Below are positions 4,678 through 27,095 of a stretch of DNA of 45,715 bases, one piece after another. The stretch comes from Chloroflexota bacterium. Its GTDB lineage: Bacteria > Chloroflexota > Anaerolineae > UBA4142 > SHND01. How positions within the stretch are numbered: position 1 is the stretch's first letter; every line of letters begins with the position of its first letter. A program made the translations under genes and the position numbers. The notes under the pieces are model-generated. The model did no database searches. It was not told where the DNA came from and saw only the letters and a program-made list of their open reading frames with translations. Location: contig JAKOPZ010000154.1 of NCBI GenBank assembly GCA_029778615.1, forward strand, positions 1 to 45,715. The letters are read 5' to 3'.

Positions 4678-4695
4678 GGTTCCGCCCGGGAGGAG

Positions 4696-4872: not shown

Positions 4873-4896
4873 TGCCAAGTTCCTTTGCAATCAATC

Positions 4897-9646: not shown

Positions 9647-9733
9647 GTCGCAACCGCGCGGCGTTCTGCTCCCTCCCTGTTCCCCCTGTTCACGCGCAAC
9701 GTGGCGGGGGGAAGCAGGCGGGACAAATGTGAT

Positions 9734-10675: not shown

Positions 10676-10680
10676 TGTGC

Positions 10681-10920
10681 GGGCGAATCGAATTCGCAAC
10701 AACGCATCGCGAAATCAACCTTCGTTGATTGAGTCTGTGCGGGCGAATCGAATTCGCAGCAACGCATCGCGAAATCAACCTTCGTTGATTGAGTCTGTGC
10801 GGGCGAATCGAATTCGCAGCAACGCATCGCGAAATCAACCTTCGTTGATTGAGTCTGTGCGGGCGAATCGAATTCGCGGCAACGTATCGCGAAATCAGCC
10901 TGCGCTGATTGAGTCCGCGT
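10681..10920. repeat. Four tandem copies of a 60-bp hairpin unit (family B)
   Basis: Four head-to-tail units of exactly 60 bp. Each contains stem 1, GCGAAT/ATTCGC, and stem 2, AATCAAC-CTTC-GTTGATT. Unit 4 has AATCAGC-CTGC-GCTGATT, a compensatory A-T to G-C change. Units 2 and 3 are identical; unit 1 differs at one base. The array fills the gap between the two permease genes. Single related copies lie at 17095, 28077 and 43503. The unit is open in several frames only because 60 is divisible by three; I do not regard it as coding. Confidence 0.95.
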
Positions 10921-10974
10921 AGGCGGACTTGGCGATGAGTTGATGCGGTTTCCAACCGCCCCAAATGAAAAACT

Positions 10975-12066
10975 ATGCAAGTCAAAACTGCAAACGAAAC
11001 AATCACTGCCCAGCCGCTCGCCGTTCCCGCGCGTTGGGCGCGGCGTTTGCGCGACGCGAGCAAATCGTTCACTGTCACGTTCATCATTGTCGTCTTGCTC
11101 GCCGCGTTTCTTTCGCCGCTGCTTCGCATCACGACCAACTCGTTCAAGACCGCCGACCAGGTGGCGGAATTGGGCACACCGCTCTATCCTGCGAAACCGC
11201 GCACGTTGACGTACAATGGCGTCGAGTACGATATTTATAAAGTGCCGCTCGCGGATGGGATTCACGAACTCGCGCTGTACAAAAAAGGGCGCGCGACGAG
11301 CGAGTTTCTCGACCCCGCGAATCCCTCTGCGCCGCCGCTCGTGTGGGAGGGCGCGTGGCGTTCGCTCGACCGCGCGTGGGAATTTGCGCCGACGCTTTCC
11401 AATTATCAAAAAGTGTGGGAACTGCTCGATTATCCGCGCTTGATGTTCAATACAATCGCGCTCGCGATTTTGAGTACCATCGGCGTACTCTTTTCCAACA
11501 CGCTCGTCGCGTACGGCTTTGCGCGCTTTCGCATTCCGGGCAAACAATTTTTATTTACGATTGTGATTGCGACCATCTTTTTGCCCGAAGCCGTGACGCT
11601 CATCCCGACGTACACGTTCTATGTAAAACTCGGTTGGGTCGGCACGTGGCTGCCGTTACTCGTGCCCACATTTTTTGCGAACGCGTACGATATATTTCTT
11701 TTGCGCCAATTTTTTCTGACGATTCCGCGCGAGATGGACGAAGCGGCGATGATGGACGGCGCGGGACCTTTTCAAATTTTGCGTTCGGTGATTTTGCCGC
11801 AAGCGTGGCCCGCAATCATCGCCGTCGGCATTTTTCATTTCGTCTATGCGTGGAATGATTATTTCGGTCCGCTCATTTATCTTTCCACCCATCCCGAATT
11901 GCAACCGATTGCGGTAGGGCTCGCGCGTTTCAACAGCATCTATGGCAACAAACCCGAACTTACGCAAGCGGGAACGATTATGACACTGATTGTGCCGGTG
12001 ATTATTTTTATTTTCACGCAAAAGTTTTTCATGCAGGGCGTCGTGATTACGGGGGTTGAAAAGTAG
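10975..12066 (+). CDS. Sugar ABC transporter permease (MalG-like), module 2, with periplasmic insertion
   Basis: A 363-residue inner-membrane protein. After the first helix (FIIVVLLAAFLSPLLRITTNSFK) about 80 extra residues (PRTLTYNGVEYDIYKVPLAD and on to APPLVWEGAWRSLDRAW) form a soluble, probably extracytoplasmic, insertion before the normal LSNYQKVWELLDYPRLMFNT. The rest is standard: EAA loop IPREMDEAAMMDGAGPFQIL and C-terminus KFFMQGVVITGVEK. MalG-type permeases usually have about 270-290 residues. It works with the permease at 9734 and the binding protein at 8093. Confidence 0.9.
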   Translation: MQVKTANETITAQPLAVPARWARRLRDASKSFTVTFIIVVLLAAFLSPLLRITTNSFKTADQVAELGTPLYPAKPRTLTYNGVEYDIYKVPLADGIHELALYKKGRATSEFLDPANPSAPPLVWEGAWRSLDRAWEFAPTLSNYQKVWELLDYPRLMFNTIALAILSTIGVLFSNTLVAYGFARFRIPGKQFLFTIVIATIFLPEAVTLIPTYTFYVKLGWVGTWLPLLVPTFFANAYDIFLLRQFFLTIPREMDEAAMMDGAGPFQILRSVILPQAWPAIIAVGIFHFVYAWNDYFGPLIYLSTHPELQPIAVGLARFNSIYGNKPELTQAGTIMTLIVPVIIFIFTQKFFMQGVVITGVEK

Positions 12067-12068
12067 GT

Positions 12069-12130
12069 GTCAAGTAGTAGGTAGCGGGTAGTAGGGCGAC
12101 TTGATACCTGCTACTTGCTACTTGCTGCAT
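12069..12130. repeat. Heptamer repeats before the GH4 gene, inverted halves
   Basis: Left half is built from GTAGTAG/GTAGCGG-like heptamers, right half from CTGCTAC/TTGCTAC heptamers on the same strand. The two halves are near-complementary and can fold into one hairpin. The array ends eight bases before the GH4 ATG. Confidence 0.8.
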
Positions 12131-12137
12131 TCCAAAT

Positions 12138-13430
12138 ATGAAAGTTGCTGTCATTGGCGGTGGTTCAACTTATACGCCTGAACTCGTCAACGGCTTTTTG
12201 CAGCGCACCGCGAGTTTTCCGCTGACGGAATTGTGGCTCGTGGATATTGACGCGGAACGTTTGCGCGTCGTCGGTGGATTCGCGCAGCGCATGGTCGAAT
12301 CGAAAAACGCGGCGTTCAAAATTTTTCTTACCACAAATCGGCGTGAGGCATTGCAAGGCGCCAGTTATGTCACAACGCAATTGCGCGTCGGGATGATGCC
12401 CGCGCGGCGCAATGACGAATATCTCGGCAAACGTCACGGGCTCATCGGTCAAGAAACGACGGGCGTCGGCGGCACGGCAAAAGCGCTGCGTACCATTCCC
12501 GTCATTCTCGACATTGCGAACGATATGCGCGAACTCGCGCCGAATGCGCTGCTCGCAAATTTTACAAATCCCGCTGGACTTGTGACGCAAGCATTATCAC
12601 AATACGCGCCCGATATTCTCGCCGTCGGCGTTTGCAATGTGCCCATCAATACCAAAATGCGAATGCTCACGCGTTTGGAAAAAATTTTGGGCACGCAGAT
12701 TGACCCGGCGCGCGGCGATTTGAAAACGCTCGGACTGAATCATTTGTCGTGGCATCGCGGCTTTACGCTCGACGGCGAAGATGTGTGGAACACAATTTTG
12801 CAAGACACGCTCGCGGAATTGAAAACACAGGAGCATCCCGAATGGAGTCCGCGTTTGGTCGAATCCTTGCGCGCGATTCCGAATTATTATTTGCAGTACT
12901 TTTATTACACCGCAAAAAAATTGGCGGAACAAGAACACTGGCCCCCCTCGCGCGCGGAACAAGTGCAGGAAATTGAAAAAGGATTGTTGCAGCAGTACGC
13001 CGACCCCGCGTTGACCGAAATGCCCGCCGATTTGATGAAACGCGGCGGCGCGTATTATTCCACCGTCGCGACGCAACTCTTGAACGCGCATTACAACGAT
13101 TTGAACGAAACGCACGTCGTCAACATCGCGCACAACGGCGCGGTATCGTCGTACCCCGCGCATTGGGTTTTGGAAATGCCCGCGCGGGTGAATCGGCAAG
13201 GCGTGCATCCTATTCCCACCGACCCGCTGCCCGACGCTTGCTTTGGTTTGCTCGCCCAAGTAAAATCGTACGAACTGCTCACCGTCCAAGCCGCCGTTCA
13301 TGGCGACCGCGAAGCCGCGTATCAAGCGCTTATCACGAATCCGCTCGGACCCAAACCCGACCAAGCGCAAGCGGTGTTGGATGATTTGTTGGAAACGAAC
13401 AGAGAATATTTACCGCGATTTTGGGGTTGA
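12138..13430 (+). CDS. GH4 family 6-phospho-beta-glucosidase-like glycosidase (ChbF type)
   Basis: A 430-residue NAD- and metal-dependent glycosidase. The N-terminal nucleotide-binding segment is VIGGGSTYTPELVNGF. The ANFTNPAG motif is present, and the metal ligands are probably C166 (VGVCNVP) and H202 (GLNHLSW). The sequence matches the phospho-beta-glucosidase/ChbF branch rather than alpha-galactosidases. Characterised ChbF cleaves chitobiose 6-phosphate after PTS uptake. Here uptake is by ABC transporter and no PTS gene is visible, so the 6-phosphate would have to come from a cytosolic kinase such as the BadF-type protein at 14561. ChbG at 13571 completes the parallel with the chb operon. 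Confidence 0.9.
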   Translation: MKVAVIGGGSTYTPELVNGFLQRTASFPLTELWLVDIDAERLRVVGGFAQRMVESKNAAFKIFLTTNRREALQGASYVTTQLRVGMMPARRNDEYLGKRHGLIGQETTGVGGTAKALRTIPVILDIANDMRELAPNALLANFTNPAGLVTQALSQYAPDILAVGVCNVPINTKMRMLTRLEKILGTQIDPARGDLKTLGLNHLSWHRGFTLDGEDVWNTILQDTLAELKTQEHPEWSPRLVESLRAIPNYYLQYFYYTAKKLAEQEHWPPSRAEQVQEIEKGLLQQYADPALTEMPADLMKRGGAYYSTVATQLLNAHYNDLNETHVVNIAHNGAVSSYPAHWVLEMPARVNRQGVHPIPTDPLPDACFGLLAQVKSYELLTVQAAVHGDREAAYQALITNPLGPKPDQAQAVLDDLLETNREYLPRFWG

Positions 13431-13437
13431 GAAGCGA

Positions 13438-13566
13438 GAAACGTGAAACGTCAAATGTAATAACGAATTTATTCGTTCCATAGCTGATGGTTGATGGCAG
13501 GCGGCAAATCACAAATCACAAATCACAAATCACAAATCACCCAATCTCTAATCTCCAGTCTCCATT
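13438..13566. repeat. Ordered heptamer arrays before the chbG-like gene
   Basis: In order: ACGTGAA/ACGTCAA copies (13438-13457), a small hairpin AACGAAT-TT-ATTCGTT, AATCACA copies (about 13503-13540) and CCAATCT/CCAGTCT copies up to 13563. The ATG at 13571 follows directly, with no Shine-Dalgarno sequence. The order ACGTNAA, AATCACA, CCAATCT, ATG matches other loci in this window. Confidence 0.85.
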
Positions 13567-13570
13567 CCCC

Positions 13571-14452
13571 ATGAATCCCATTCTTTCCAAACTCGGTTAC
13601 GACGAAAACGCGCGCGTTGTCATTCTCCACGCGGACGATATTGGCATGTGTCAGGCGTCGGTGGACGCGTACGCGGAGCTTTTAGAATTTGGCATCATGT
13701 CCTCTGCTGCGACGATGGTGCCGTGTCCGTGGTTTCCCTACGCGGCGGAAAAATTCCACGCGTTGCAAAACAATCCGCGTATTGACATTGGCGTACATTG
13801 CACGCTCAACAGCGAATGGAAAAATTTCCGTTGGGGCGCGGTCTCGACACGCGACGCCGCGAGTGGTTTCTTGGACGCCGACGGCTATTTTTATTCTCGC
13901 AGTGAACCAACCCAAGAAAACGCGCAGCCCGATGCGGTAGAAATTGAATTGACCGCGCAAGTGAAACGCGCGCTCGCGGCAGGAATTGACGTAACGCATT
14001 TGGATACGCACATGCTCACGGTGTTTCATCCGCAACTCTTGCCGCCGTATTTGCGCGTCGCGAAAAAATTTCGTTTGCCCGCGTTCGTCTTGCGTCCCGA
14101 ACACGAATGGCTGCGCGAAATGCCGCGCAGCGTCAAGGCACACTTGCGCGCGGCGGAGAAACGCGGGATGCCGCTCTTTGACCATTTCGACGCGTTGGAT
14201 TTGTCGAATCACAAAAATCGTTTGCAAAAAGCGCAACGCGCGTTGGACGCATTGCCTGCGGGTTTGAGCGCGCTCGTGTTTCATCCCGTGCGCGACAGCG
14301 CCGAAGTGCGCGCGATGGCGCCCGATTGGAAATGTCGCGTCGCCGATTACAAATTATTTTTGAACGAACAATTCCGCGCGATGATTGCGGAATCCGGCGT
14401 ACACGTCATCGGTTATCGCAAACTGCGCGACGCGATGCGGAATCACGTTTGA
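13571..14452 (+). CDS. YdjC/ChbG family carbohydrate deacetylase
   Basis: A 293-residue cytosolic deacetylase. In E. coli, ChbG removes one acetyl group from chitobiose 6-phosphate, which is needed for ChbF action and ChbR induction. Motifs are VILHADDIGMCQAS (metal Asp pair D22/D23), GVHCTLNSEW (H76), THLDTHM and VFHPV. ATG 13571 is chosen because upstream in-frame codons only translate heptamer repeats (ITNHKSQITNHP). It lies between GH4 and kinase genes. The stop codon falls inside the first unit of the next heptamer array, so the last residues (NHV) are repeat-encoded. Confidence 0.88.
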   Translation: MNPILSKLGYDENARVVILHADDIGMCQASVDAYAELLEFGIMSSAATMVPCPWFPYAAEKFHALQNNPRIDIGVHCTLNSEWKNFRWGAVSTRDAASGFLDADGYFYSRSEPTQENAQPDAVEIELTAQVKRALAAGIDVTHLDTHMLTVFHPQLLPPYLRVAKKFRLPAFVLRPEHEWLREMPRSVKAHLRAAEKRGMPLFDHFDALDLSNHKNRLQKAQRALDALPAGLSALVFHPVRDSAEVRAMAPDWKCRVADYKLFLNEQFRAMIAESGVHVIGYRKLRDAMRNHV

Positions 14453-14557
14453 CGTTTGACGTTTGACGTTTTACGTTTGACGTTTGACGTTTCACGCTTT
14501 ATATCATTCGTCATCCGTCAAATCTCCAGTCTCCAATCTCTATTTTCCAATCTCCAA
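14446..14557. repeat. Ordered heptamer arrays before the BadF-type kinase gene
   Basis: ACGTTTG units (14446-14500, reverse complement of the ACGTCAA type) are followed by CATCCGTC-like sequence and CCAGTCT/CCAATCT units to 14557. ATG 14561 follows after AATTT. There is no Shine-Dalgarno sequence. The array begins inside the end of the preceding coding sequence. Confidence 0.85.
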
Positions 14558-14560
14558 TTT

Positions 14561-15559
14561 ATGCCTCACTATTTTCTTGGCGTTGACATTGGCAGTTCCA
14601 AAAGCCACGCGTGCGTTGCGGACGAAACGGGGCAAGTCCTCGGTTTCGGCAGCGCGGGCGCGGGCAATCACGAATCGGTGGGTTACGAAGGATTGATTCG
14701 CGCGCTCGACGAATCCACACAGCGCGCGTTGGCGCAGGCGAACGTTTCCAAACGCGACATCGCGGGCGCGGGGTTCGGCATCGCGGGTTTTGATTGGCAA
14801 ACCGAACGCGCGGCGATGCTCGACGCGATTTCGACATTGAAACTCGATGCGCCCGTCGAAATTGTGAATGATGCAATGCTCGGCGTGATTGCGGGCGCGC
14901 GTGACGGCTGGGGTGTCGCCGTCGTTTCGGGAACGGGCTGCACCGCGCGCGGACGCACGCGTGACCGCCAACGCGAAGGCATGGTTACGGGCGCGGGGCA
15001 GTGGATGGGCGAAGCAGCGGGCGCGGGCGAATTGGTGCGCTGGGCAATTCACGCGGCGGCGCACATGTGGACACGGCGCGGACCCGCGACCAAACTCGCG
15101 GACGCGTTGATTCAACGCGCGGGCGCGCGCGATTTGCAAGATTTGCTCGAAGGCATTATCAATTTTCGATACGAACTCGACGCGTCCGCCGCGCCGCTCA
15201 TTTTTGAAATCGCCGCGCAAGGTGATGTTGTCGCGCAGTCTTTGATTCAACGTGCGGGACGTGAACTCGGCGAATTGGCGAACGCGGTGATTCGGCAATT
15301 AAATTTTGAAAAGGAAAATTTCGATGTGGTGTTGGTGGGCAGCATGTGGAATTCGGGCGAGCCGCTCATTCGCCCGTTCCGCGAAACCGTGCTGCCGCTC
15401 GCGCCGCGCGCACAATTTGTAAAACTGTCCGTGCCGCCCGTTGTCGGCGCGGTGCTTTTGGGAATGGAACAAGCGGACCTCGCGCCCACACCATCTCTTC
15501 GCGAACGACTCGACGCGACGATTCATCAAGCACGCAGCGCGCCTGTGTTTGCTGCTTGA
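14561..15559 (+). CDS. BadF/BadG/BcrA/BcrD ATPase family protein, N-acetylglucosamine kinase-like
   Basis: A 332-residue member of the acetate-and-sugar-kinase/Hsp70 superfamily. The phosphate-1 motif is FLGVDIGSSKSHACVAD, the connect/phosphate-2 region VSGTGCTARGR, and adenosine-binding motifs follow (GAGQWMGEAAGAGELVRWAI, VVLVGSMWNSG). Characterised relatives include N-acetylglucosamine kinase; others are benzoyl-CoA reductase subunits, excluded here by context. It could phosphorylate GlcNAc or an imported chitooligosaccharide, supplying substrate for the GH4 enzyme. ATG 14561 is preferred because the 35 codons upstream of it in frame translate heptamer repeats. Confidence 0.82.
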   Translation: MPHYFLGVDIGSSKSHACVADETGQVLGFGSAGAGNHESVGYEGLIRALDESTQRALAQANVSKRDIAGAGFGIAGFDWQTERAAMLDAISTLKLDAPVEIVNDAMLGVIAGARDGWGVAVVSGTGCTARGRTRDRQREGMVTGAGQWMGEAAGAGELVRWAIHAAAHMWTRRGPATKLADALIQRAGARDLQDLLEGIINFRYELDASAAPLIFEIAAQGDVVAQSLIQRAGRELGELANAVIRQLNFEKENFDVVLVGSMWNSGEPLIRPFRETVLPLAPRAQFVKLSVPPVVGAVLLGMEQADLAPTPSLRERLDATIHQARSAPVFAA

Positions 15560-15599
15560 CTTGTTCGCATGGGTGTTGCTTTTTGGAGTGTCGTGGAAA

Positions 15600-15691
15600 C
15601 GCGAATCTACGCGAATCAAAACGAATTCGCGCGAATAAAAAACAATTTTTTTTTCTTTGTGTAGATTCGTAACAATTCGCGTAGATTCGCG
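15600..15691. repeat. Inverted-repeat element (family C), 17-bp perfect arms
   Basis: CGCGAATCTACGCGAAT at 15600-15616 is the exact reverse complement of ATTCGCGTAGATTCGCG at 15675-15691. The interior is A+T-rich with poly-A and poly-T. A diverged relative lies at 39180-39236. The size and structure are those of a small non-coding mobile element. A T-run in the interior might also act as a terminator for module 2. Confidence 0.85.
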
Positions 15692-15713
15692 TTCAGGTGC
15701 ATGACTCTATAAT
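15686..15713 (+). promoter_or_regulatory. Candidate promoter for the chitinase gene, possibly leaderless
   Basis: A consensus -10 TATAAT lies at 15708-15713, only eight bases before the ATG at 15722. A weak -35 (TTCGCG, 15686-15691) is formed by the end of the inverted repeat. Transcription would begin at or next to the start codon. Confidence 0.5.
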
Positions 15714-15721
15714 TCTCTCAC

Positions 15722-16813
15722 ATGAAGCAATTCATTCTGCACGGGTTCAAAATTTTCGCTCCTGCTATTTTTCTCTCACTCATCGCCGCGTGCAATACAA
15801 CATCTCCAACACCGAACCCAACACCCCCCACCGTGTTACCGACCGTTTCACCGGACGGAACGCTGCGGCGAGCGTTCCCTACCCCAACGCCGTACGGAAC
15901 GCTCGCCGCAGCGTTCCCTACGCCCGCACCGCAGGGAATCCTCCCCGCAGCGCTCCCCGCGTTTCGCATTGTCGGTTACATCACCGATTGGGGCGTTCCT
16001 GTCGCGCCCGCGCAAATCGAAAAACTCACGCACGTGAATTACGCGTTTGCCTTGCCGAAAAAAGATGGCGCGATTGATTTTCCGCCGAACGGTTGGAGGT
16101 TAAAGCAAATCGTCGAAACCGCGCACGCGAAAAATATCCGCGTGTTGATTTCGGTTGGCGGTTGGGGTCTTGACAAGCAATTTGAAGCGTTCGCCGCGTC
16201 GCCCGAACTGCGCGCGAAATTTGTGAAAAGTTTGATGCAGTACATTGACGAAAATAATTTGGATGGCGCGGATCTAGATTGGGAATACCCGCTCGGCGGC
16301 GCGTCGTCGGAAAATTTTTTGGCGTTGATGAAGGAATTGCGCGTGCAACTCGACGCGCGCAAAAAATTGTTGACCGCCGCCGTCGCCGCGTATGGTGACA
16401 ACGCGGAAGGCATTCCGAGCGAAACCTTTGCGCTTGTAGATTTTTTAAATCTCATGGCATACGCAGAAAGCGGCGCGCATCACTCGACGTACGCGCTGGC
16501 AGAAAAATCGCTGGACTATTGGAACGCGCGCGGATTGGTACAAGAGAAAACCGTGTTGGGCATTCCGTTTTACGCGTCGCCCGGTGATGTGTCGTTTGCG
16601 AAATTGGTGAAAAGTGATGCGAACGCGGCGCAAACGGATTTTTTCAATTATCACGGAACGAACGTCGCATACAACGGTCTGCCGATGATGCGCTCGAAAA
16701 CGCAATTGGCGATGGAGCGCGCGAACGGCGTGATGATTTGGTCTATCAATGATGATGCAACAGGTGATTTTTCTTTACTGAACGCAATTGTTGAAACGAC
16801 GCAAGGCAAGTAA
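15722..16813 (+). CDS. GH18 family chitinase-like lipoprotein
   Basis: A 363-residue surface-anchored glycoside hydrolase. The signal peptide ends in LIAAC (C24 lipidated). Residues 25-80 form a Pro/Thr linker partly built from repeated DNA (GTLRRAFPTP, GTLAAAFPTP, GILPAALPA). The TIM barrel starts FRIVGYITDWG. The GH18 signature DGADLDWEYP gives D181, D184, D186 and catalytic acid E188; SVGGWG and NLMAYAE are also typical. It would release soluble chitooligosaccharides outside the cell for the module 2 importer. The barrel is compact; the usual MxYD motif reads LMAYAE, so the Asp next to the conserved Tyr is replaced. Confidence 0.88.
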   Translation: MKQFILHGFKIFAPAIFLSLIAACNTTSPTPNPTPPTVLPTVSPDGTLRRAFPTPTPYGTLAAAFPTPAPQGILPAALPAFRIVGYITDWGVPVAPAQIEKLTHVNYAFALPKKDGAIDFPPNGWRLKQIVETAHAKNIRVLISVGGWGLDKQFEAFAASPELRAKFVKSLMQYIDENNLDGADLDWEYPLGGASSENFLALMKELRVQLDARKKLLTAAVAAYGDNAEGIPSETFALVDFLNLMAYAESGAHHSTYALAEKSLDYWNARGLVQEKTVLGIPFYASPGDVSFAKLVKSDANAAQTDFFNYHGTNVAYNGLPMMRSKTQLAMERANGVMIWSINDDATGDFSLLNAIVETTQGK

Positions 16814-17490: not shown

Positions 17491-17599
17491 AACAAATTTC
17501 AAATTTGTTCGACCTCCCAAATTGGGATGCGTTGACGATATGGATTCGTGAAAAAATTTTACACAGCGATAGCGTACAACAAATTTCAAAGTTGTTCGA
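17435..17599 (+). repeat. Diverged tandem duplication of a gene 3' end (about 80 bp)
   Basis: Copy 1 (17435-17514) and copy 2 (17517-17599) share GATTGGGA..CGTTGAC/CATTGACC, ATGGATTCGTGAAAAAATTT and ACAAATTTCAAA.TTGTTCGACC. Copy 2 has lost the coding role and leads into the binding-protein gene. Each copy ends in a small ACAAATTTCAAATTTGT hairpin. Confidence 0.85.
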
Positions 17600-17724
17600 C
17601 CAGCAAAGGAGGAAGCCCAAGCAAAACATTCCACCGAAGTTTTTCCCCACTCGACCCATCACTACTTGTGACGCGTAAATTCCGCGAGGCGTCGCAAGGC
17701 GTTCAACCATTCAGGAGGAGAGTA

Positions 17725-19239
17725 ATGAAATCCCAAAAGTTCGCGGGCGGAATTTTTTCCGCCGTTATGATTGTCGCACTTGCCGCAATGATTCTTGTCG
17801 CGTGCGGCACTCCGGCAACTCCGCCGCCCCCGCAAGTTGTTAAAGAAACTGTTGTCGTACCGCAAACCGTTGTCGCACAACAGACCGTCGTCAACACCGT
17901 CAAAGAAACGGTGGCTGTCCCGCAAACCGTTGTGGCGCAGCAAACCGTCGTCGTCGAACCGACCGCCGCGCCCAACCCCGAAGCATTGATTCAGGGCGTC
18001 GAGCCGAATGCGGAAATCACCCTTTGGACATTTTGGCTTTCTCCCACCTTTGACGATTACATCAAGAGCACCATCGCGCGTTTCAATCAAGCATACCCCG
18101 GCGTCAAGGTCAATTGGCAAGACCATCAAGGCACATTTCAGGATGACCTGCGCAACGCGTTCGCCGCAGGCAACGCGCCCGATGTCATCAACCTTTCCGT
18201 CAGCGAAGGTTGGGTCAGCGATTACGCGTCGAAAGGTTTGCTGCTGCCGCTGGACGACAAGGTCCCGCAGAGCGTCAAGGATTTGTATTTCAAAGGTTTG
18301 TGGCAGGAACAGCTGATTAACGGCGTGAATTATCAATTCCCGTGGTATCAGGGCATCAACGTCGAACTCATCAACACCAAAATTTATCAGGGCGACGCCG
18401 TGCGCGATGCCGATGGCAACATCACCGGCTATACCGGCGGCGCCGGATTGAAACTGGAAGATTTCCCCAAGACGATTGACGGACTGCCCGCGCTCTGCAA
18501 AACCATCAAAGAAAAAACCGGCACGCTCTGCGACATTCGCCTGACTGTCAACGACCTCTTGGCGCAAATGGTGTACGAAGGCGGCGTCAAAGTTTTGAGC
18601 GATGACGGGAAATCGTGCACGTTCGATTCCGCCGATGGCGTCGCATGGCTCGACATGTACGTTGGAATGGTCAAAGACGGCACCGTTGACAAATCCGTTT
18701 TGGTCACCGACCAGGACCGCGTAGGTCTCGACCTCTTTACTTCCGGCAAAGCTGCGTTCTATCAGACCGGTCCGAATCTGATTCGTGAAGTGCGCGCAAA
18801 CAATCCCGCATTGTACGGGTATCTCGCTGCCGTGCCCGCGCCTGTTGGCAAATCCGGTGTGCTCGGCAAAGGACTGATGAGCATTTCGGTTAAAAAAGAT
18901 ACCAAATATCCGAACGCGTCCATCGCCCTCGCGCAGTTCTTTACCAATCCGCAGAGCATGTTGGAATTTTCGAAAGTTGTGGCGATTTATCCTTCGACGC
19001 CGAAATCGTACGATGACCCGTTCTTTTCCGCGAAACCCGTCGCCGTCGAAGACAGCGCGAAACCGATTGCCAAAGATGTGGTAAGCAAGTACGCGGACAT
19101 TGTGCCGACGATTCCAAACAAAGCCGATGTGAACGAAGCCGTACTCCAAGCCGTTCAATCCGCGTTGTTCAACAACGTTCCCGCGCAAACCGCGTTGACC
19201 GAAGCCGCGACGAAATGCACGTCGCTGCTTGCGAAATAA
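17725..19239 (+). CDS. Extracellular sugar-binding lipoprotein (ABC family 1), module 3
   Basis: A 504-residue solute-binding protein. The signal peptide ends in the lipobox ILVAC with C27 lipidated. The linker CGTPATPPPPQVVKETVVV and repeated VPQTVVAQQTVV units (to about residue 75) nearly copies the linker of the protein at 672. The mature domain starts EITLWTFWLSPTFDDYIKST and differs from the other two binding proteins. A strong AGGAGGAG precedes ATG 17725; longer in-frame extensions upstream have no such site. It heads an operon with permeases at 19308 and 20192. GH3 and ROK neighbours suggest an N-acetylhexosaminide ligand. Confidence 0.92.
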   Translation: MKSQKFAGGIFSAVMIVALAAMILVACGTPATPPPPQVVKETVVVPQTVVAQQTVVNTVKETVAVPQTVVAQQTVVVEPTAAPNPEALIQGVEPNAEITLWTFWLSPTFDDYIKSTIARFNQAYPGVKVNWQDHQGTFQDDLRNAFAAGNAPDVINLSVSEGWVSDYASKGLLLPLDDKVPQSVKDLYFKGLWQEQLINGVNYQFPWYQGINVELINTKIYQGDAVRDADGNITGYTGGAGLKLEDFPKTIDGLPALCKTIKEKTGTLCDIRLTVNDLLAQMVYEGGVKVLSDDGKSCTFDSADGVAWLDMYVGMVKDGTVDKSVLVTDQDRVGLDLFTSGKAAFYQTGPNLIREVRANNPALYGYLAAVPAPVGKSGVLGKGLMSISVKKDTKYPNASIALAQFFTNPQSMLEFSKVVAIYPSTPKSYDDPFFSAKPVAVEDSAKPIAKDVVSKYADIVPTIPNKADVNEAVLQAVQSALFNNVPAQTALTEAATKCTSLLAK

Positions 19240-19307: not shown

Positions 19308-20195
19308 ATGTTTATGACCAAAAAATTTTCGTTCACGCCGTACTTGTTTCTCGCCCCCGCGTTGCTCATCATCGCAGTCTTTATTCTTTATCCCACCGTC
19401 GCGGTGGTCTATTACAGTTTCACCGATTACAACATTGTCCAGCCGCCCGTGTGGGTTGGTTTGCAAAATTACCAGCAGCTTGTTCAAGACCCCATTTTTT
19501 GGAAAGCGTTGACCAATTCCTTTTTATATTTGATTGTCACGCCCACGTTGATTTTTCTTTCGATTCTGCTCGCCATCGTCGTCAATCGCCCGCTGCCGGG
19601 CATCAATGTTTTTCGCGCGTTGTATTACGTTCCCGTCATCAGCGGCACCATCGCGGTGGGCATCGCGTGGCGGTGGTTGTTTGATTACAACGGCGGTCTC
19701 ATCAACGGCATTTTGATTGGCGTCGGTATTTTGCAACAGCCCGTGCAGTGGCTCGCCGAACCCGCGTTCACCTTGCCGATTGCGATGCTGCTCACCATTT
19801 GGATTGGACTGGGTTATTACATGATGGTATTCCTCGCGGGCTTGCAAAACATTCCCGAAGATTTGTACGACGCGGCGGTGATTGACGGCTGCAACGGTTG
19901 GCAAAAACATTGGTACGTTAGTTTTCCCGGTTTGCGTCCGCAAATCACATTCGTCGCCGTCATTTCGTCGCTCGCGGCGATTGAAGTGTTTAACGAAATT
20001 TTTGTGACGACGGGCGGACTGGGCGGAATTTTGAACAGCGGCGTGACGCTCGTGTTTTATTTGTGGCGGCAGGCATTTCGTTTGCAGCACGCGGGCTATG
20101 CGTCCGCGATTGCGATTGTGTTACTCGTCATCACGCTCGGTTTTTCCATCATCAACATTCGTCTGCTCGAACGCTCGGAGCAAGAAGCATCATGA
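19308..20195 (+). CDS. Sugar ABC transporter permease (MalF-like), module 3
   Basis: A 295-residue inner-membrane protein of normal family length with six hydrophobic stretches, first helix YLFLAPALLIIAVFILYPTV, WVGLQNYQQLV after it, and the EAA loop IPEDLYDAAVIDGCNGWQKHW. The start is ATG 19308 or, two codons on, 19314; upstream in-frame codons translate the hairpin. Its stop overlaps the next start by four bases (ATGA), so translation is coupled. Confidence 0.92.
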   Translation: MFMTKKFSFTPYLFLAPALLIIAVFILYPTVAVVYYSFTDYNIVQPPVWVGLQNYQQLVQDPIFWKALTNSFLYLIVTPTLIFLSILLAIVVNRPLPGINVFRALYYVPVISGTIAVGIAWRWLFDYNGGLINGILIGVGILQQPVQWLAEPAFTLPIAMLLTIWIGLGYYMMVFLAGLQNIPEDLYDAAVIDGCNGWQKHWYVSFPGLRPQITFVAVISSLAAIEVFNEIFVTTGGLGGILNSGVTLVFYLWRQAFRLQHAGYASAIAIVLLVITLGFSIINIRLLERSEQEAS

Positions 20196-21070
20196 CGAAC
20201 GCGCAAACGCTTACGCTCGCGCGCGCCACTCATGCGCGCCGCGTCCGTAATCAAATCCTCGAAAACATTGTTTGGTACATGATTTTGTTTTTGATGGCGG
20301 TCATCACCGTCTTGCCGTTCCTCTGGATTTTGCTCACTTCTTTCAAAGGACCGCACGACCAAATTGTTTCGATTCCTTTGCAATTCATTCCGAACGACCC
20401 GACGGTTGCGAACTATGTGCGCGTATGGAATCAATTGCCCATCGGCAAATTTTTTCTCAACAGCATTTTCGTCGGCGTCACGACAACCTTGTTGAATGTT
20501 TTCATTACTGCGCTCGCCGCGTATCCGTTGGCGAAAATGAAATTTCGCGGACGCGACGCGATTTTTTATTTGCTGCTCGCGACGTTCATCATTCCCGCGC
20601 AGCTCACGTACATTCCCAGTTTTGTTCTCGCGGTCAATGTATTCAAATACTACGACACCTTGCTCGCGCTCGTTTTTCCTTCGCTCGCGACGGTGTTTAA
20701 CATTTTTCTCTTGCGTCAGGCATTTCTCTCGGTGCCGAATGATTTGCTCGACGCGGCGCGGATGGATGGCGCGAGCGAATTTCGTATCTGGTGGCAAATT
20801 CTCTTGCCCATCATTCGCCCCACGCTCGCGACGGTTGCGATATTCACATTCGTCAATTCGTGGAACGATTTTCTCTGGCCCTCGCTCATGCTCCACACGC
20901 GCGACAACATGACATTGCCTGTTGGACTCATCGCGCTGCAAGGGATGTTCGCGTCCGATTTTCGCGGCGTCGCGGCGGGTGTGGTGATGACCGTCGTGCC
21001 CATTTTGATTTTTTTCGTCGCGCTCCAACGCCAATTTGTGCGCGGCTTGAGCGGCGCGGTCAAAGGGTGA
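20192..21070 (+). CDS. Sugar ABC transporter permease (MalG-like), module 3
   Basis: A 292-residue inner-membrane protein with the EAA loop VPNDLLDAARMDGASEFRIWW and the family-typical C-terminus RQFVRGLSGAVKG. ATG 20192 lies in the ATGA overlap with the preceding permease. No ATP-binding cassette gene follows, as in the other two importers of this window. A shared ATPase encoded elsewhere is therefore likely. Confidence 0.92.
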   Translation: MTNAQTLTLARATHARRVRNQILENIVWYMILFLMAVITVLPFLWILLTSFKGPHDQIVSIPLQFIPNDPTVANYVRVWNQLPIGKFFLNSIFVGVTTTLLNVFITALAAYPLAKMKFRGRDAIFYLLLATFIIPAQLTYIPSFVLAVNVFKYYDTLLALVFPSLATVFNIFLLRQAFLSVPNDLLDAARMDGASEFRIWWQILLPIIRPTLATVAIFTFVNSWNDFLWPSLMLHTRDNMTLPVGLIALQGMFASDFRGVAAGVVMTVVPILIFFVALQRQFVRGLSGAVKG

Positions 21071-21192
21071 AGGAATTTTTGATCCCTCACGTTCGTTCGG
21101 GACGAGTTTTCGATTTTTGATTTGCGATTTCAACGTTCTCCATCGTAATTGAATCGTCATTTCCAAATTGCCAAGAAACCGCTATACTCTCG

Positions 21193-21267
21193 CGAAATCA
21201 CGCATCACAAATCACCCCATCACCCCATCACCCAATCACCCAATCTCCAATCTCCAATCTCCAATTC
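21193..21267. repeat. Heptamer/octamer arrays before the GH3 gene
   Basis: Copies of ATCACAA, then CATCACCC octamers, then CCAATCT heptamers, ending three bases before ATG 21270. The order matches the arrays before 13571 and 14561. There is no Shine-Dalgarno sequence. Confidence 0.85.
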
Positions 21268-21269
21268 CT

Positions 21270-22847
21270 ATGAACCTCGCCCAAGCCGTCGGTCACAAAT
21301 GGATGTTGAGTTTTGGCGGCACGGAAATTCCGGCTGACGTCCAAGAAACCATCGCGCAGCAAACCATCGCGGGCGTGACGCTCTATCGCGCGCTCAATGT
21401 AAAAAATCCCGCGCAAGTGCGCGAACTCATCGCGTCGTTGCAGCGCGCCGCGCGCGAATCGAACCAGCCGCCGTTACTTGTCGCGGTTGACCAAGAAACG
21501 GGAACTTTGTTTGCAATTCCGCACACCACGCCGTTTCCGGGAAATCTCGCGCTCGCCGCGACGCGCGATGCCTCACTCGCCGAACGCATGGCGTATGCGG
21601 TGGGGCGCGAACTCGCGGCAATGGGCGTCAACATCAATCTCGCGCCCGTGTGCGATGTGATTGTAAATCCACAAAATTCTGCCGTCGGCGCGCGTTCGTT
21701 CGGTGAGGATGTGAATGTCGTCTCCCGAATGGTGAGTGCGTATGTCAAAGGTTTGCAGCGCGCAGGCGTTGCCGCAACCGCAAAACATTTTCCCGGTCAC
21801 GGTGATACCGACCTCGATTCGCATTACGGTGTGCCGATTGTGAATCACGACGCCGCGCGGTTGCGCGCAATCGAATTTCCACCCTTCCGCGCGGCGATTG
21901 AAGCGGGCGCGCGTTTGGTCTTGACCGCGCATCTCGCGCTGCCGCGTCTCGACTCGCAAGCCGATTTGCCCGCAACGCTTTCGCCGTACATTCTTAAAGA
22001 CATCTTGCGCGGCGAATTGGGTTTTCGCGGCGTCATCATCACCGACGCGATGGACATGCAAGCCATTTCGCAAGACCGGGGGATGATTGTGGATTCGATT
22101 ACGGCGGCGGCGGCGGGGATTGATGTGATGCTTTCGGGTCCGCGCCAAGCGGGTTCTACGTTGATGTACGATTCGATTTTGCAAGCCGCGCAGCGCAATT
22201 TAATTTCCGCCGCCGAAATGCAAACCTCTGCCGCGCGCATTGTCGAACTCAAAACATGGTGCGCGCAAAATCAAATGCTCGACCTCGCTGTCGTCAATTG
22301 CGCGGAACACAACGCGCTCGCGGATGAAATCGCCGCGCGTTCGATTACGCTCGTGCGCGATGAAACAAAACAATTGCCGCTGCAACTCGCGTCTGGTGCG
22401 CGCGTGTTGGTCATTGTCCCAACGCCGCAAGATTTGACGCCCGCCGACACGTCATCGTACGAACGCGTCGCGCTGGCGGACGCACTCCGCGCGCAGCATC
22501 CGTGCGTGGACGAAATCGTTTTGCCGATTGACCCCTCGGCGTCCGATATTGCCGCGCTGCGCGAAAAATTTTCCGCGTACGAAAAAATTATCATTGGCAC
22601 TCTCAACGCGACACAACACGCGGGGCAGGCGGCATTGGTGCGCGCGGCATTGAATGAAAATTCGGATACAATAATAGTCGCGTTGCGGATGCCGTATGAT
22701 TTACAATGTTTCCCGCACGCGCCGACATTCCTTTGCACATACTCCATTCAATCGCCATCGCTCCGCGCACTCGCACGCGTGCTATTCGGTCACGCGCACG
22801 CACAAGGCAAATTGCCCGTATCCATTCCCGATTTGTATCCTCTCTGA
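21270..22847 (+). CDS. GH3 family beta-N-acetylhexosaminidase (NagZ-like)
   Basis: A 525-residue glycoside hydrolase. The N-terminal TIM barrel carries the N-acetylglucosaminidase signature KHFPGHGDTDLDSH (residues 172-185), whose His/Asp dyad acts as acid/base, and the nucleophile D259 in GVIITDAMDM. A second domain (about 340-525) resembles the GH3 C-terminal domain, as in two-domain NagZ/NagA enzymes. There is no signal peptide, so it works in the cytosol on imported di- or oligosaccharides such as chitobiose or muropeptide-derived sugars. ATG 21270 is chosen because upstream in-frame codons translate the repeats. It follows module 3 permeases and precedes a binding-fold protein and a ROK kinase. 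Confidence 0.88.
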   Translation: MNLAQAVGHKWMLSFGGTEIPADVQETIAQQTIAGVTLYRALNVKNPAQVRELIASLQRAARESNQPPLLVAVDQETGTLFAIPHTTPFPGNLALAATRDASLAERMAYAVGRELAAMGVNINLAPVCDVIVNPQNSAVGARSFGEDVNVVSRMVSAYVKGLQRAGVAATAKHFPGHGDTDLDSHYGVPIVNHDAARLRAIEFPPFRAAIEAGARLVLTAHLALPRLDSQADLPATLSPYILKDILRGELGFRGVIITDAMDMQAISQDRGMIVDSITAAAAGIDVMLSGPRQAGSTLMYDSILQAAQRNLISAAEMQTSAARIVELKTWCAQNQMLDLAVVNCAEHNALADEIAARSITLVRDETKQLPLQLASGARVLVIVPTPQDLTPADTSSYERVALADALRAQHPCVDEIVLPIDPSASDIAALREKFSAYEKIIIGTLNATQHAGQAALVRAALNENSDTIIVALRMPYDLQCFPHAPTFLCTYSIQSPSLRALARVLFGHAHAQGKLPVSIPDLYPL

Positions 22848-22865: not shown

Positions 22866-22892
22866 GTCATTTCGAACGTAGTGAGAAATCTC
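22866..22892 (+). repeat. Family A palindromic repeat abutting the start of the 22894 gene
   Basis: GTCATTTCGAACGTAGTGAG then AAATCTC, one base before ATG 22894. It places TAG and TGA stops in frame immediately upstream, so the next gene cannot extend further 5'. Confidence 0.8.
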
Positions 22893-22893
22893 C

Positions 22894-24078
22894 ATGTCCA
22901 CCGAACTCGAATTTTCCATCATGGCTCCGAACGCGGCGGGAATGCTGCCGTTGATGGAGCAATTTCACGCCGAGACGGGAATCCGAGTACGCTTGCGCTT
23001 GCTCTCATGGGATACGGCGTGGAGCGATTTAATCAAAGTCGCGTTGTACGGCGACGGACCGGACGTTTCCGAAATCGGCAGCACGTGGATCGGCGACCTT
23101 GTGGCAATGGAAGCGGTGCGCGCGTTCAACGCCGAGACCATTGCGGCGCTCGGCGGAATGTCGCATTTTATTCCCGTCTCATGGGGCAACACACATCTCG
23201 CGGGCGATGACGCGGTGTGGGCGATTCCCTGGATGGTCGGCGCGCGCATGATGTTTTATCGCCGCTCGTTATTTGAACGCGCAGAGGCAGACCCCCAACG
23301 CGCGTTTCACGACGCCGCGAGTTTTGATGACGCACTGCGTCAATTGCAGCAAGCGCGCGTTGGCGTACCATGGACTGTGCCGACGGGTTTCACGCACACG
23401 ACTTTTTTGAATATCGCAAGCTGGGTGTGGGGCGCGGGCGGGGATTTTGTCACACCGGATGGCAAGCGAACCTTGTTCGCGCAGCCCGAAGCATTGAACG
23501 GCGTGCGCGCGTATTTTGCACTGGGCAAATATCTCGCGCTCCGCGTGCGGCAGCTCAACGCGTTGGAACCGGATACGCAATTTTTGCGCGACGCGGAAAC
23601 CGCATTGACGATGAGCGGACCGTGGCTCTTTCAAGCCGCGTCCGCGAATTTGTTGGACGATTTGGGCGCGGCGCTGCCGCCCGGTCCTTCGTTCGTCGGC
23701 GGTTCGTATCTGGTCGTGTGGAAACATTCACCGCGCGTGCAAGCGGCACACAAGCTCATTCACTTTCTCACGCGCGCACACGCGCAACTTCAATACCCCC
23801 AAGTCGTCGGACTGGTGCCTGCCGTGACAGCGGTGCATGACGAACCACCGTTTGCGACGAATCCGTTGTGGCAAGCGGCAATTCGCGGTCTGCGCAGCGG
23901 GCGCGCGTTTCCGGTGACGCGGTCGTGGGGTTTGATGGAAGACCGTTTGGCCATTGCGCTCGCGGGGTTGTGGCGCGATGTGTTAAATGACCCGTCGGGT
24001 GTGGATATTGGCGCGGCGATGGAACGGCGGCTTGTGCCTTTGGCAAAGCGGCTCGATTTGGTTTTGGGACAGGCATAA
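22894..24078 (+). CDS. Family 1 solute-binding-fold protein lacking a signal peptide
   Basis: A 394-residue protein with the sequence pattern of a mature sugar-binding protein from its second residue on (LEFSIMAPNAAGMLPLMEQF, DGPDVSEIGSTWIGDL, AIPWMVGARMMFYRR, TALTMSGPWLF). There is no hydrophobic leader and no lipobox. In-frame TAG-TGA at 22879-22884 rule out a longer N-terminus. It is therefore either cytosolic, or a leader was lost when the family A repeat inserted. The stop overlaps the ROK kinase start by one base (TAATG), so the two are translationally coupled. Possible roles: intracellular sugar sensor or carrier, or a decaying binding protein. The otherwise intact frame argues for function. 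Confidence 0.8.
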   Translation: MSTELEFSIMAPNAAGMLPLMEQFHAETGIRVRLRLLSWDTAWSDLIKVALYGDGPDVSEIGSTWIGDLVAMEAVRAFNAETIAALGGMSHFIPVSWGNTHLAGDDAVWAIPWMVGARMMFYRRSLFERAEADPQRAFHDAASFDDALRQLQQARVGVPWTVPTGFTHTTFLNIASWVWGAGGDFVTPDGKRTLFAQPEALNGVRAYFALGKYLALRVRQLNALEPDTQFLRDAETALTMSGPWLFQAASANLLDDLGAALPPGPSFVGGSYLVVWKHSPRVQAAHKLIHFLTRAHAQLQYPQVVGLVPAVTAVHDEPPFATNPLWQAAIRGLRSGRAFPVTRSWGLMEDRLAIALAGLWRDVLNDPSGVDIGAAMERRLVPLAKRLDLVLGQA

Positions 24079-25001
24079 TGGCGTACGCAATCGGTGTGGA
24101 TGTGGGCGCGACGAAAATCGCGGTGGCGTTGGTCACACGCGCGGGACACGCCGTCTCGACGCGGCAAACGGAAACGCGCGTGCAAGACGGAACGGACGCG
24201 GTGATTCGGCGGATGGCGTCTGAAGTGGACGCGCTCGCCGCCGTCGCGGACGAAGCGGTTCTCGGCGTGGGCATTGGCGTGCCCGGCTTGGTGAATCCCG
24301 ATGCGGGCGTGGTGGTGCAGGCGGTGAATATGGGGTGGACGAATGTGCCGCTGCGCGAACGCGTGCGCGCGCAAATTGGTTTGAACGTGCCGGTGCGCGT
24401 GGAAAATGATTTACGCGGCGCGGCGCGCGGCGAATTTTTATTTGGCGCGGCGCGCGGCGTGGACGATTTTATTTTGCTCGCGATTGGTTCCGGTCTCGGC
24501 AGCGCAGCAATGGTGCGCGGGCACGTGGTGCACGGCGCCAATTTTTTCGCGTCCGAGTTGGGGCATTTTGTCATTGACCCGCAAGGACGCGTGTGCACGT
24601 GCGGCTTGCGCGGCTGCGCGGAAACGGTCTTGTCGGGACGCGGTTTGATTGACACGACGCGCGAATTTTTGCAAGCCGATTTTTCGTCGTCGCTGAACGC
24701 GAACGATTTGACGACGAACGCGATTCTCGACGCGGCGCGGCAGAACGACGCGGCGGCGTGCGCGGCGATTGAAAAAATGGGCGAATGGTTGGGGATTGTG
24801 ATGGCAACCGCGTCCGCGTGGCTGAATCCCGCGCGAATGATTATCGGCGGCGGACTCGGGCTCGCGGCATTCGATTTGTTGTACAAACCCGCGCGCGAGT
24901 CGTACTCCCAACGCGTGCTCAAAGCGAGTCAACAGGGCGTTGAGCTCGTGCATTCGCAAGTGGAATCCAGCGCGGTCGGCGCGGCGGCGTTGGTATTATA
25001 A
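24078..25001 (+). CDS. ROK family sugar kinase
   Basis: A 307-residue ROK protein. The ATP phosphate motif is IGVDVGATKIAVAL, the sugar-binding region VGIGVPGLVNP and ENDLRGAARGEF, and the zinc motif LGHFVIDPQGRVCTCGLRGC with conserved H and three Cys. No N-terminal HTH, so it is a kinase (glucokinase or N-acetylglucosamine/mannosamine kinase type) rather than a NagC-like repressor. After the GH3 enzyme releases N-acetylhexosamine, this would phosphorylate it. The last gene of module 3; its stop codon lies inside a 23-bp perfect palindrome. Confidence 0.9.
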   Translation: MAYAIGVDVGATKIAVALVTRAGHAVSTRQTETRVQDGTDAVIRRMASEVDALAAVADEAVLGVGIGVPGLVNPDAGVVVQAVNMGWTNVPLRERVRAQIGLNVPVRVENDLRGAARGEFLFGAARGVDDFILLAIGSGLGSAAMVRGHVVHGANFFASELGHFVIDPQGRVCTCGLRGCAETVLSGRGLIDTTREFLQADFSSSLNANDLTTNAILDAARQNDAAACAAIEKMGEWLGIVMATASAWLNPARMIIGGGLGLAAFDLLYKPARESYSQRVLKASQQGVELVHSQVESSAVGAAALVL

Positions 25002-25043
25002 AAACGTAGAGAGGTTCCGCCGGAACCTCTCTACGTTTTTATA
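24997..25043. terminator. Bidirectional terminator: 23-bp perfect palindrome (family D)
   Basis: Positions 24997-25019 (TATAAAAACGTAGAGAGG and TTCCG) are the exact reverse complement of 25021-25043, with a single central base. Runs of T lie on the 3' side on both strands. The stop codons of the ROK kinase (24999-25001) and of the convergent regulator (25041-25039) both lie inside it. The same GAGAGG-TTCC theme occurs inside purL at 45336-45360. Confidence 0.92.
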
Positions 25044-27018
25044 AACATTCCATAAACAAATTCATCTCGCGCACGCGCCGATGGCTCACTGCCCAACTCC
25101 ACGCGGCGCGCACATTTTCGCGTTCCGCGCCCAATGCGGTCAACGCGCTCCCCACATCTTCGCTCTGCAATTGCGCTTGATGCCGCGTCAACAATTCCGC
25201 GAAATAGCGACAGTGCGCGTCATGCACGCGTTCGTTTTCTTTATCTTGGCTCAATTTTTCATTCGCGTACAAATGCAATAATTCATGAATCGCATAGCGT
25301 CCCGCCGCGCTGCGCCGCAAGAGCGATTTGTCCACGAGTCCTGCCAACACGGGCAACGACGCGCCGACCACTTGCGCCGCCGCGTCGCGGTCAAAGCCAC
25401 CGCGAAACACCGCGAGCGAACGAAAAATTTCCTGCTCGCGCGGCGACAATAAATTCCACGAATACTCGAATACCGCGCGCACACTGCGATGTCGTTCGGG
25501 CGCGTCTTGCGCGGCGGTGACGAGAAAATCCAAACTCGCTTCAATCTCACTCGCGATTTCTTGCGGCGACAACATGCGCAGCCACGATGCCGCGAGCTCG
25601 ATGCCCAACGGCGCGCCTTCGACCAAGCCACAAATGCGCGCGACATCCAACGCGTTCTCTTCCGTCAATTCAAAATTGGAACGCGCGCGCTGCGCGCACT
25701 GGACGAACAAAGAAATGCCGCTGTAATCCAACATCGCGTCGAGCGGCAAGCCGCGCAGCACCGGATATTCCAGCCCGCCGATTTCCAAAAGATATTCGTG
25801 CTTCAAATTCAAACGCACGCGCGTCGTCGCAATTACGCGCACGCGCGGCGCGTAACGCAAAATGTCACTCAACGCGCGCGCTTCGGAAACGAATTGCTCA
25901 AAGTTGTCGAGAATGAGCAGCGCGCTCTTGTCGCGCAAATAATTCAACAATTGGGCTTGCGCGGGCAGTTTGCTTTTGAGTTCGACGCCGAGCGTGTCCG
26001 CAATCGTTTGAAATAACGCGCCGCGCGCATCTTCACTCGCCGCTGCGTCCGAAAGCGGAATTAGAAATACGCCGTCTGCGAACGGCGCGTCGAGATTCAT
26101 TTCGGGATCAATGCTCCGTTCCGCGACATGCAGCGCGAGCCGCGTTTTGCCCATGCCGCCCGCGCCGACGAGCGTAATCAATTGCGCGGCGGGATTGTTC
26201 AAATACGCGGCGATTTGGGCGAGTTCCTGTGCGCGTCCCACAAGCGGCGTCAATTGCGGCGGCAAATTGTGCGGGGGGGGGGCGGCAGTGGAGGCAATGC
26301 GTTCGTACAGCGCGGTGGTTTCGGGCAGCGGCGCGGCGTCGAGTTCTTGACGCAGAACGCGTTTGCAGATTTCGTACTGCGCGAGCGCGGCGCTGCGCTG
26401 CCGACTGCGCGCATACAAGAGCATCAGATGACGATGTGTCTCTTCGCGCCACGGCTCGATGGCGAGCAGTCGGTTCGCGTACTCGATGCCTGCCGCGTAT
26501 TCTTGACGTTCGAGGTGTTTGACCACGAGCGTATGCAGTGCCTGCACCATCAGCGTATTGAGCAGCGAACGTTTGCCGAGCACCCATTCTTCAAAGCCCA
26601 ATGTGTCGCCCGCGTAAAAGCCGTCCAAAAAATCGCCCTGTACCAATTCGACCGCGCGATGCAAATTTTGTGGGTCCTGTTTCGACGCGTCGTCGCCGAG
26701 CGCTTTCAAAAACAATTCCACGTCGAGCCAGTACGGGGCATCTTGAGCGAATGCAACCCGCTCGCGCGAAATGACGAGATGTTCGCCGACGAGCGCGCGC
26801 AGGTTGGACAAAACGTTGCGTAAATTTTTACTGGCCTGCCGCGTGGGCATGTCGCCCCACAACAGCGCGGCGAGGGCTTCACGCGCGTGCGCGCCATCGG
26901 TGACGGCGAGGTAAAACAGGAGCGCTTGCGCTTTGGAGGAAATGAAACCGGTGACCGGCTTGTCGTCCAATTTCACTTCGGGAGTGCCGAGCAAACGCAA
27001 GGTCAATGTTTTGGACAT
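25039..27018 (-). CDS. BTAD/NB-ARC transcriptional regulator (AfsR/SARP-like), C-terminally short
   Basis: A 659-residue multidomain regulator. Residues 1-90 are a winged-helix OmpR-like DNA-binding domain (LTLRLLGTPEVKL, ALLFYLAVTDGAH, ALAALLWGDMPTRQASKNLR). Residues about 95-235 are the BTAD domain of TPR-like helices. Residues about 255-560 are an NB-ARC-type ATPase with Walker A GAGGMGKT (285-292) and Walker B ALLILDNFE. The last ~100 residues are the winged helix after NB-ARC plus a start of helical repeats. Relatives usually continue into a long TPR sensor; here the frame stops inside a palindrome, so truncation is likely. ATG 27018 is chosen; further upstream is octamer repeat. A TACAAT -10-like box lies nine bases before it. 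Confidence 0.85.
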   Translation of the reverse strand: MSKTLTLRLLGTPEVKLDDKPVTGFISSKAQALLFYLAVTDGAHAREALAALLWGDMPTRQASKNLRNVLSNLRALVGEHLVISRERVAFAQDAPYWLDVELFLKALGDDASKQDPQNLHRAVELVQGDFLDGFYAGDTLGFEEWVLGKRSLLNTLMVQALHTLVVKHLERQEYAAGIEYANRLLAIEPWREETHRHLMLLYARSRQRSAALAQYEICKRVLRQELDAAPLPETTALYERIASTAAPPPHNLPPQLTPLVGRAQELAQIAAYLNNPAAQLITLVGAGGMGKTRLALHVAERSIDPEMNLDAPFADGVFLIPLSDAAASEDARGALFQTIADTLGVELKSKLPAQAQLLNYLRDKSALLILDNFEQFVSEARALSDILRYAPRVRVIATTRVRLNLKHEYLLEIGGLEYPVLRGLPLDAMLDYSGISLFVQCAQRARSNFELTEENALDVARICGLVEGAPLGIELAASWLRMLSPQEIASEIEASLDFLVTAAQDAPERHRSVRAVFEYSWNLLSPREQEIFRSLAVFRGGFDRDAAAQVVGASLPVLAGLVDKSLLRRSAAGRYAIHELLHLYANEKLSQDKENERVHDAHCRYFAELLTRHQAQLQSEDVGSALTALGAERENVRAAWSWAVSHRRVREMNLFMECL

Positions 27019-27047
27019 GACGAACGGATTGTAGCATGGAAAATGAG

Positions 27048-27095
27048 AAGGTGAAGGGGTGACAAGGTGACAGGGTGACAAGGTGACGGGGTGAC
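27048..27095. repeat. Octamer repeats upstream of the BTAD regulator
   Basis: Six copies of AAGGTGAC/AGGGTGAC/GGGGTGAC with an 8-bp period. On the coding strand of the regulator they read as pyrimidine-rich GTCACC units, the same polarity as the arrays upstream of plus-strand genes. Confidence 0.85.

Follow-up and report, generated by a model that had tools for sequence, protein, structure and literature searches.

The window analysed here, a 45,715-nucleotide stretch of DNA, encodes a family-1 solute-binding protein (SBP) without an export leader. It belongs to a clade of such proteins in Anaerolineae for which both the absence of a leader and the retention of the sugar pocket are well supported at the level of sequence. 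We propose, as an explanation to which we give an even chance, that they are cytosolic oligosaccharide-binding proteins which serve co-encoded intracellular glycan-degrading enzymes instead of delivering to an ABC permease, and whose ancestor was an exported beta-glycoside/cellodextrin-binding protein. By definition, solute-binding proteins of family 1 are regarded as extracytoplasmic, and the Pfam name itself says "extracellular". A search of the open-access literature turned up no description of a cytosolic member.

The leaderless gene and its operon

The 394 aa protein is encoded at 22894-24078 (+) by an intact ORF with an ATG start. It passes the Pfam cut-off for SBP_bac_8 (1.4e-21) and SBP_bac_1 (1.3e-17), with matches beginning at residue 17-20, and both fold and descent make it a family-1 binding protein. 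Just 5' of the start, at 22882-22884 (+), lies an in-frame TGA, which leaves only three codons between this stop and the ATG and thus no room for a Sec or lipoprotein leader. The earlier note, which had described a sugar-binding fold of this length lacking a leader, was therefore right, as it was in observing that the stop codon (TAA, 24076-24078) overlaps the ATG at 24078 of a ROK sugar kinase gene (24078-25001, +; Pfam 2.8e-61).

On the same strand, the genes 5' of the binding protein are, in order, an exported lipoprotein SBP (17725-19239, within the ORF 17548-19239; the start is inferred, and translation from the M at 17725 gives a leader with the lipobox LVAC), ABC permeases 1 (19308-20195) and 2 (20192-21070), both with inferred starts, and a GH3 glycosidase (21270-22847, start inferred within the ORF 21168-22847; Pfam 4.4e-82), for which NCBIfam suggests a NagZ-like type with a score that does not reach the cut-off. 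The operon hence carries two binding proteins, one of them exported and the other leaderless. In the window, as in the syntenic orthologous operons L017 and L043, it is the lipoprotein SBP that occupies the place of the binding protein of the permease pair. Since the leaderless protein lacks an export signal and is not the transport binding protein of its operon, it would be a mistake to class it as part of an ABC importer. Convergent to it lies a BTAD/NB-ARC regulator gene (25039-27081, -), also kept beside the binding protein in L017 and L043; this convergent arrangement was seen in three genomes from two families.

A copy of a dispersed 26-bp repeat at 22866-22891 (+) ends 2 bases before the ATG, and carries the upstream translation-start region of the binding protein gene. 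The genome contains 104 copies at ≤3 mismatches (51 forward and 53 reverse), while the reversed-pattern control gave 0. The repeat reported earlier at the very start of the gene is thus real. The accompanying suggestion that it had replaced an original leader is ruled out by L017 and L043, whose proteins start at the same residue and where the repeat is missing.

Distribution of leaderless proteins

A search of 60 related genomes gave 8 matching genomes at E ≤ 1e-15; scanning a single genome per species yielded 26 loci. Profile A1, built from 19 leaderless proteins, had matches at E ≤ 1e-60 in 30 of the 396 genomes searched in the class; inspection of N-termini revealed a leaderless copy in 24 of them and leader-bearing relatives in six (G023, G051, G454, G501, G562 and G638), G562, with its N-terminus cut by the contig, being classed by tree position. 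Per-genome copy numbers in this search are lower bounds because four candidates were scored per genome. In G040, eight matches were found, two of which are fragments.

Beyond the class, 23 of 400 genomes of the phylum match at 1e-40, and those examined outside the class carry leaders. Searches in two other phyla took their phylum names from loci L032 and L040, which served as search centres. In Bacillota, 19 of 299 genomes match, and all 19 stretches examined (18 genomes, with G1158 excluded) bear hydrophobic leaders. In Actinomycetota, none of 296 genomes matched at E ≤ 1e-50, in a search that had no known positive, so that the empty result by itself shows nothing. A contig labelled Bacteroidetes (L025) carries two copies, one of which is placed beside the Anaerolineales copy L030 in the tree; this contig is probably mislabelled or misbinned.

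Altogether, 48 leaderless copies were found at 46 loci in Anaerolineae. The N-terminus is complete in 43 of the 48 frames, and an upstream stop is visible in 42, of which 22 leave room for ≤12 codons between stop and start and 13 for ≤4. Peak 15-residue N-terminal hydropathy does not exceed 1.53 in leaderless proteins, against 2.29-2.85 in seven leader-bearing relatives and 1.73-3.17 in further ones. A leader hidden in a longer ORF was ruled out, as extensions of the leaderless proteins contain no hydrophobic segment. The single regular-expression lipobox hit, in L043, falls in a 35-residue extension upstream of the conserved start of the family (hydropathy 1.13) and was treated as a chance match, there being no strongly hydrophobic stretch. 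In L119 the frame runs off the contig and the N-terminus was left unscored; the gene begins 5 bp past the stop of a GH161 gene. A cytosolic location of these proteins would follow from the absence of leaders.

Phylogeny and selection

In a tree of 81 proteins, 38 of them leader-bearing, the 43 leaderless ones all fall on one branch (SH-aLRT 100) with a stem of 1.03, nested within the leader-bearing proteins. Frames spanning fewer than 300 profile positions were dropped, and the tree also omits L131 and L109 (on the same contigs as L026 and L024), the split copy L127, and the duplicate loci L053, L056, L096, L098, L099 and L101. A slower tree of 30 proteins (19 leaderless and 11 others) supports the leaderless branch with 100/99. 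One leaderless branch inside leader-bearing diversity suggests that the leader was lost once, anciently, in Anaerolineae, and that the descendants then radiated. That the change was a loss rather than a gain rests on the outgroup used and on leaders being general in the family. In L127 the leaderless SBP is found in two frames (4158-5401, -), between GH43 and GH35/42 genes, and the frameshift may be real or of the assembly.

Orthologues in the same operon are leaderless too, with 77% (L017) and 57% (L043) identity and the same start residue. Comparison of the window gene with L017 gave dN 0.164 and dS 1.658 (NG86), the latter near saturation, which at the sequence level indicates purifying selection and rules out decay of the window copy. 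The earlier note had named leader-bearing orthologues at the locus together with decay of this copy as what would overturn its reading; the syntenic genes and the substitution pattern show the opposite.

Predicted fold and pocket residues

The structure predicted for the window protein (pLDDT 94.4) closely resembles betaGlyBP of Thermus thermophilus (7c6k: Z 49.8, rmsd 1.8, 384 aligned residues) and CbpB of Clostridium thermocellum (7x0i: Z 49.3). It retains the stacking and pocket tryptophans of the betaGlyBP/CbpB clade, namely W39, W65, W177, W179, W244 and W345. Within the leaderless set, W65 and W179 are present in 43/43 proteins, W177 and W345 in 41/43, W39 in 38/43 and W244 in 31/43. W41 and W67, the betaGlyBP residues mutated by the depositors, correspond to W39 and W65. 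The acidic pocket residue (E117 in betaGlyBP) is absent from the window protein, which has G116 instead. This position holds D or E in 30/43 leaderless and 15/15 sister proteins and G in the window subclade, so the ligand of the window protein may differ. With these pocket residues kept, the leaderless proteins are predicted to bind sugar.

Other positions have been released. The glycines of the GPxG loop after residue 263 occur in 29/29 and 27/29 leader-bearing proteins and in 0/43 leaderless ones, and G164 in 29/29 and 1/43, respectively, with other positions released likewise; some release is expected from divergence alone, as the 29 leader-bearing proteins form a shallower set than the leaderless ones. 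Residue 60 is E in 31/43 leaderless proteins and Q in 29/29 leader-bearing ones. The GPxG loop, G164 and the other released positions may be former permease or closure contacts.

Gene neighbourhoods

Neighbours at the 46 leaderless loci were named by Pfam, NCBIfam and PDB sequence matches. These loci cannot be treated as independent, since L019-L022 are closely related and G040, G522, G701 and G461 give several each. By hand count, a sugar-degrading or sugar-modifying gene lies on the same strand, adjacent or one gene off, at 35/46 loci, or at 33/46 when only glycoside hydrolases and phosphorylases are considered. Phosphorylases of GH94 or GH161 are the commonest, GH94 being found within 4 kb at 15/46 loci. 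Other neighbours are GH3, GH1, GH4 with a BadF kinase and GH18, GH13 with PfkB, GH43 with GH35/42, GH5 and GH12-GH6, as well as a GlcNAc 2-epimerase (L046) and a large lectin/pectate-lyase-like protein (L047). No sugar enzyme was found beside the gene at the remaining 11/46 loci (L027, L044, L051, L104, L105, L111, L113, L114, L118, L122 and L125, with L118 and L122 on short contigs). Same-strand neighbours lie within 50 bp for 30/47 leaderless copies, a count that covers 45 loci because the L103 gene is hidden by an ORF extension of GH18.

Permeases lie within 4 kb in 6/8 leader-bearing relatives, while at 38/46 leaderless loci, several of them short contigs, no match to window permease 2 was found within this distance. 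Permeases are present in the operon at eight leaderless loci, and in six of these (window, L017, L043, L103, L106 and L127) there is an ordinary SBP gene as well, recognised in L103 and L106 from its resemblance to window 8093-9646; at L018 and L121 the operon start is off the contig.

A 1101-aa neighbour without a Pfam match was recognised as a GH161 phosphorylase by PDB sequence (889 bits to 9h8v and 888 to 9qqk). GH161-like phosphorylases occur in L116 (9128-12430, -), L024, L119 and L030, the L116 and L024 copies having no Pfam match, and in L024, L119 and L116 the gene is directly upstream of the leaderless SBP. A conserved protein of 284-294 aa (L020:6113-6964, with relatives in L021, L022 and L049) is encoded between GH94 and the leaderless SBP, or between the leaderless SBP and GH1; the 284-aa L020 protein gave no Pfam or PDB match and a poor model (pLDDT 44.6).

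Proposed function and alternatives

From the lack of a leader, the single branch, purifying selection, fold, kept pocket residues and gene context, all read from sequence, we infer the ligand, hand-over as opposed to sensing, and every step after import. The ancestor would have been an exported beta-glycoside/cellodextrin-binding protein that lost its leader; descendants would have kept the pocket and shed the constraints of transport-competent relatives, and their genes would have spread into many glycan-utilisation operons beside cytosolic phosphorylases and glycosidases. Sugar would enter through an ordinary ABC importer with its exported binding protein. Inside the cell, the kept cleft of the leaderless protein would bind oligosaccharide, and by capture, buffering or presentation of substrate the protein would serve the phosphorylase or glycosidase encoded with it. 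No single partner is implied, since neighbouring enzyme families differ between loci. Counting against this explanation are the 11 loci without an adjacent sugar enzyme, the lack of independence among loci, and the L129 neighbourhood, where the genes encode two products of usually secreted types, a GH12-GH6 enzyme and a binding protein of family 5. More tentatively, the proteins may form an undescribed class of cytosolic oligosaccharide carriers, in which a single catabolic route employs one binding protein outside the membrane and one inside, and the inner one passes imported beta-glucans, chito- or other oligosaccharides to phosphorylases or glycosidases as a trans-acting carbohydrate-binding subunit.

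The main rival, already raised in the earlier note and possible but in our view on the unlikely side, is a cytosolic sugar sensor, whose closed, loaded form would dock on a regulator (the BTAD/NB-ARC protein or a nearby LacI-type one) and control expression. The convergent BTAD/NB-ARC gene and LacI-type genes at 8/46 loci would fit, and a precedent is the SBP CuaD, which senses cellobiose for a two-component system (PMC10384115). However, the leaderless protein has no DNA-binding or signalling domain, regulators are neighbours far less often than enzymes, and the BTAD gene, which is not co-transcribed, has been retained in the window subclade alone. We find it harder to credit a sequestration or storage buffer, the sequestration role being another idea of that note: an abundant sponge that holds oligosaccharide and limits futile efflux or competition with no enzyme contact. 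Such a role accords with a pocket kept while the constraints of leader-bearing relatives were lost, and with the Kd of 0.56-1.89 uM for cellodextrins given for the relative CbpB (PMC9601137), but it makes the tight operon coupling needless, and a stoichiometric sponge is costly. Improbable to a further degree is a fold turned enzyme or other non-carrier, with catalysis in the cleft: the long stem and clade-specific changes such as E60 could be so explained, yet the pocket aromatics are those of a binder and no new invariant catalytic pair was identified.

Coupling to the ROK kinase, proposed earlier and in keeping with the stop/start overlap, would have the leaderless protein feed or regulate the adjacent enzyme, and as a general function it is largely refuted and very improbable. 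A ROK gene lies within 4 kb at 1/46 loci, the window; ROK is absent from the L017 and L043 operons, and three genomes of the same genus have its nearest orthologue at another place. Two of these three, G001 and G003, gave no match to the window binding protein. Least credible, and in effect refuted, is the view that the protein is an exported lipoprotein, wrongly annotated or in decay, whose leader disappeared not long ago, with the repeat as a possible cause. The repeat does abut the ATG, but the single old branch, the leaderless syntenic orthologues that lack the repeat, purifying selection and the intact ORF all argue against it.

Comparison with known systems

A binding-protein-like domain used inside the cell is known from SgrR of E. 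coli, a member of another family in which the domain is fused to a DNA-binding domain. If the proposed role in serving cytosolic enzymes is true, the family-1 fold has become a stand-alone binder within the cell, in a radiated clade of single origin tied to cytosolic phosphorylases. Such a clade would be a natural experiment separating residues for transport (lost) from those for sugar binding (kept), and a reason not to annotate leaderless genes as importer parts.

Thermus betaGlyBP (PDB 7c63-7c71) shares with the window protein the fold (Z 48.5-49.8 at 28-29% identity) and the two mutated pocket tryptophans. It was solved and titled as an ABC-transporter binding protein, whereas the window family lacks the leader and the GPxG loop, and the window copy also lacks the acid. 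For CbpB (PDB 7x0i-7x0n) the fold similarity is Z 48.8-49.3 at 25% identity; its stacking tryptophans W90 and W296 (PMC9601137) correspond by alignment offset to W65 and W244. Unlike the window protein, CbpB works with a cellodextrin importer, transporter B, as its binding protein (PMC9601137). CuaD of Ruminiclostridium cellulolyticum is similar in being a second, non-transport sugar-binding protein beside that of the transporter, but it binds the extracellular domains of a histidine kinase and so acts outside (PMC10384115). The window protein, with GH3, ROK and BTAD/NB-ARC genes as neighbours, does not have the arrangement of such an exported three-component sensor next to a histidine kinase.

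The window contains another glycan operon (8093-16813) with genes for an SBP, two permeases, GH4, a YdjC-like protein, a BadF/NagK-like kinase and GH18. It has no leaderless SBP gene and resembles L103, L106 and L018, which have one.
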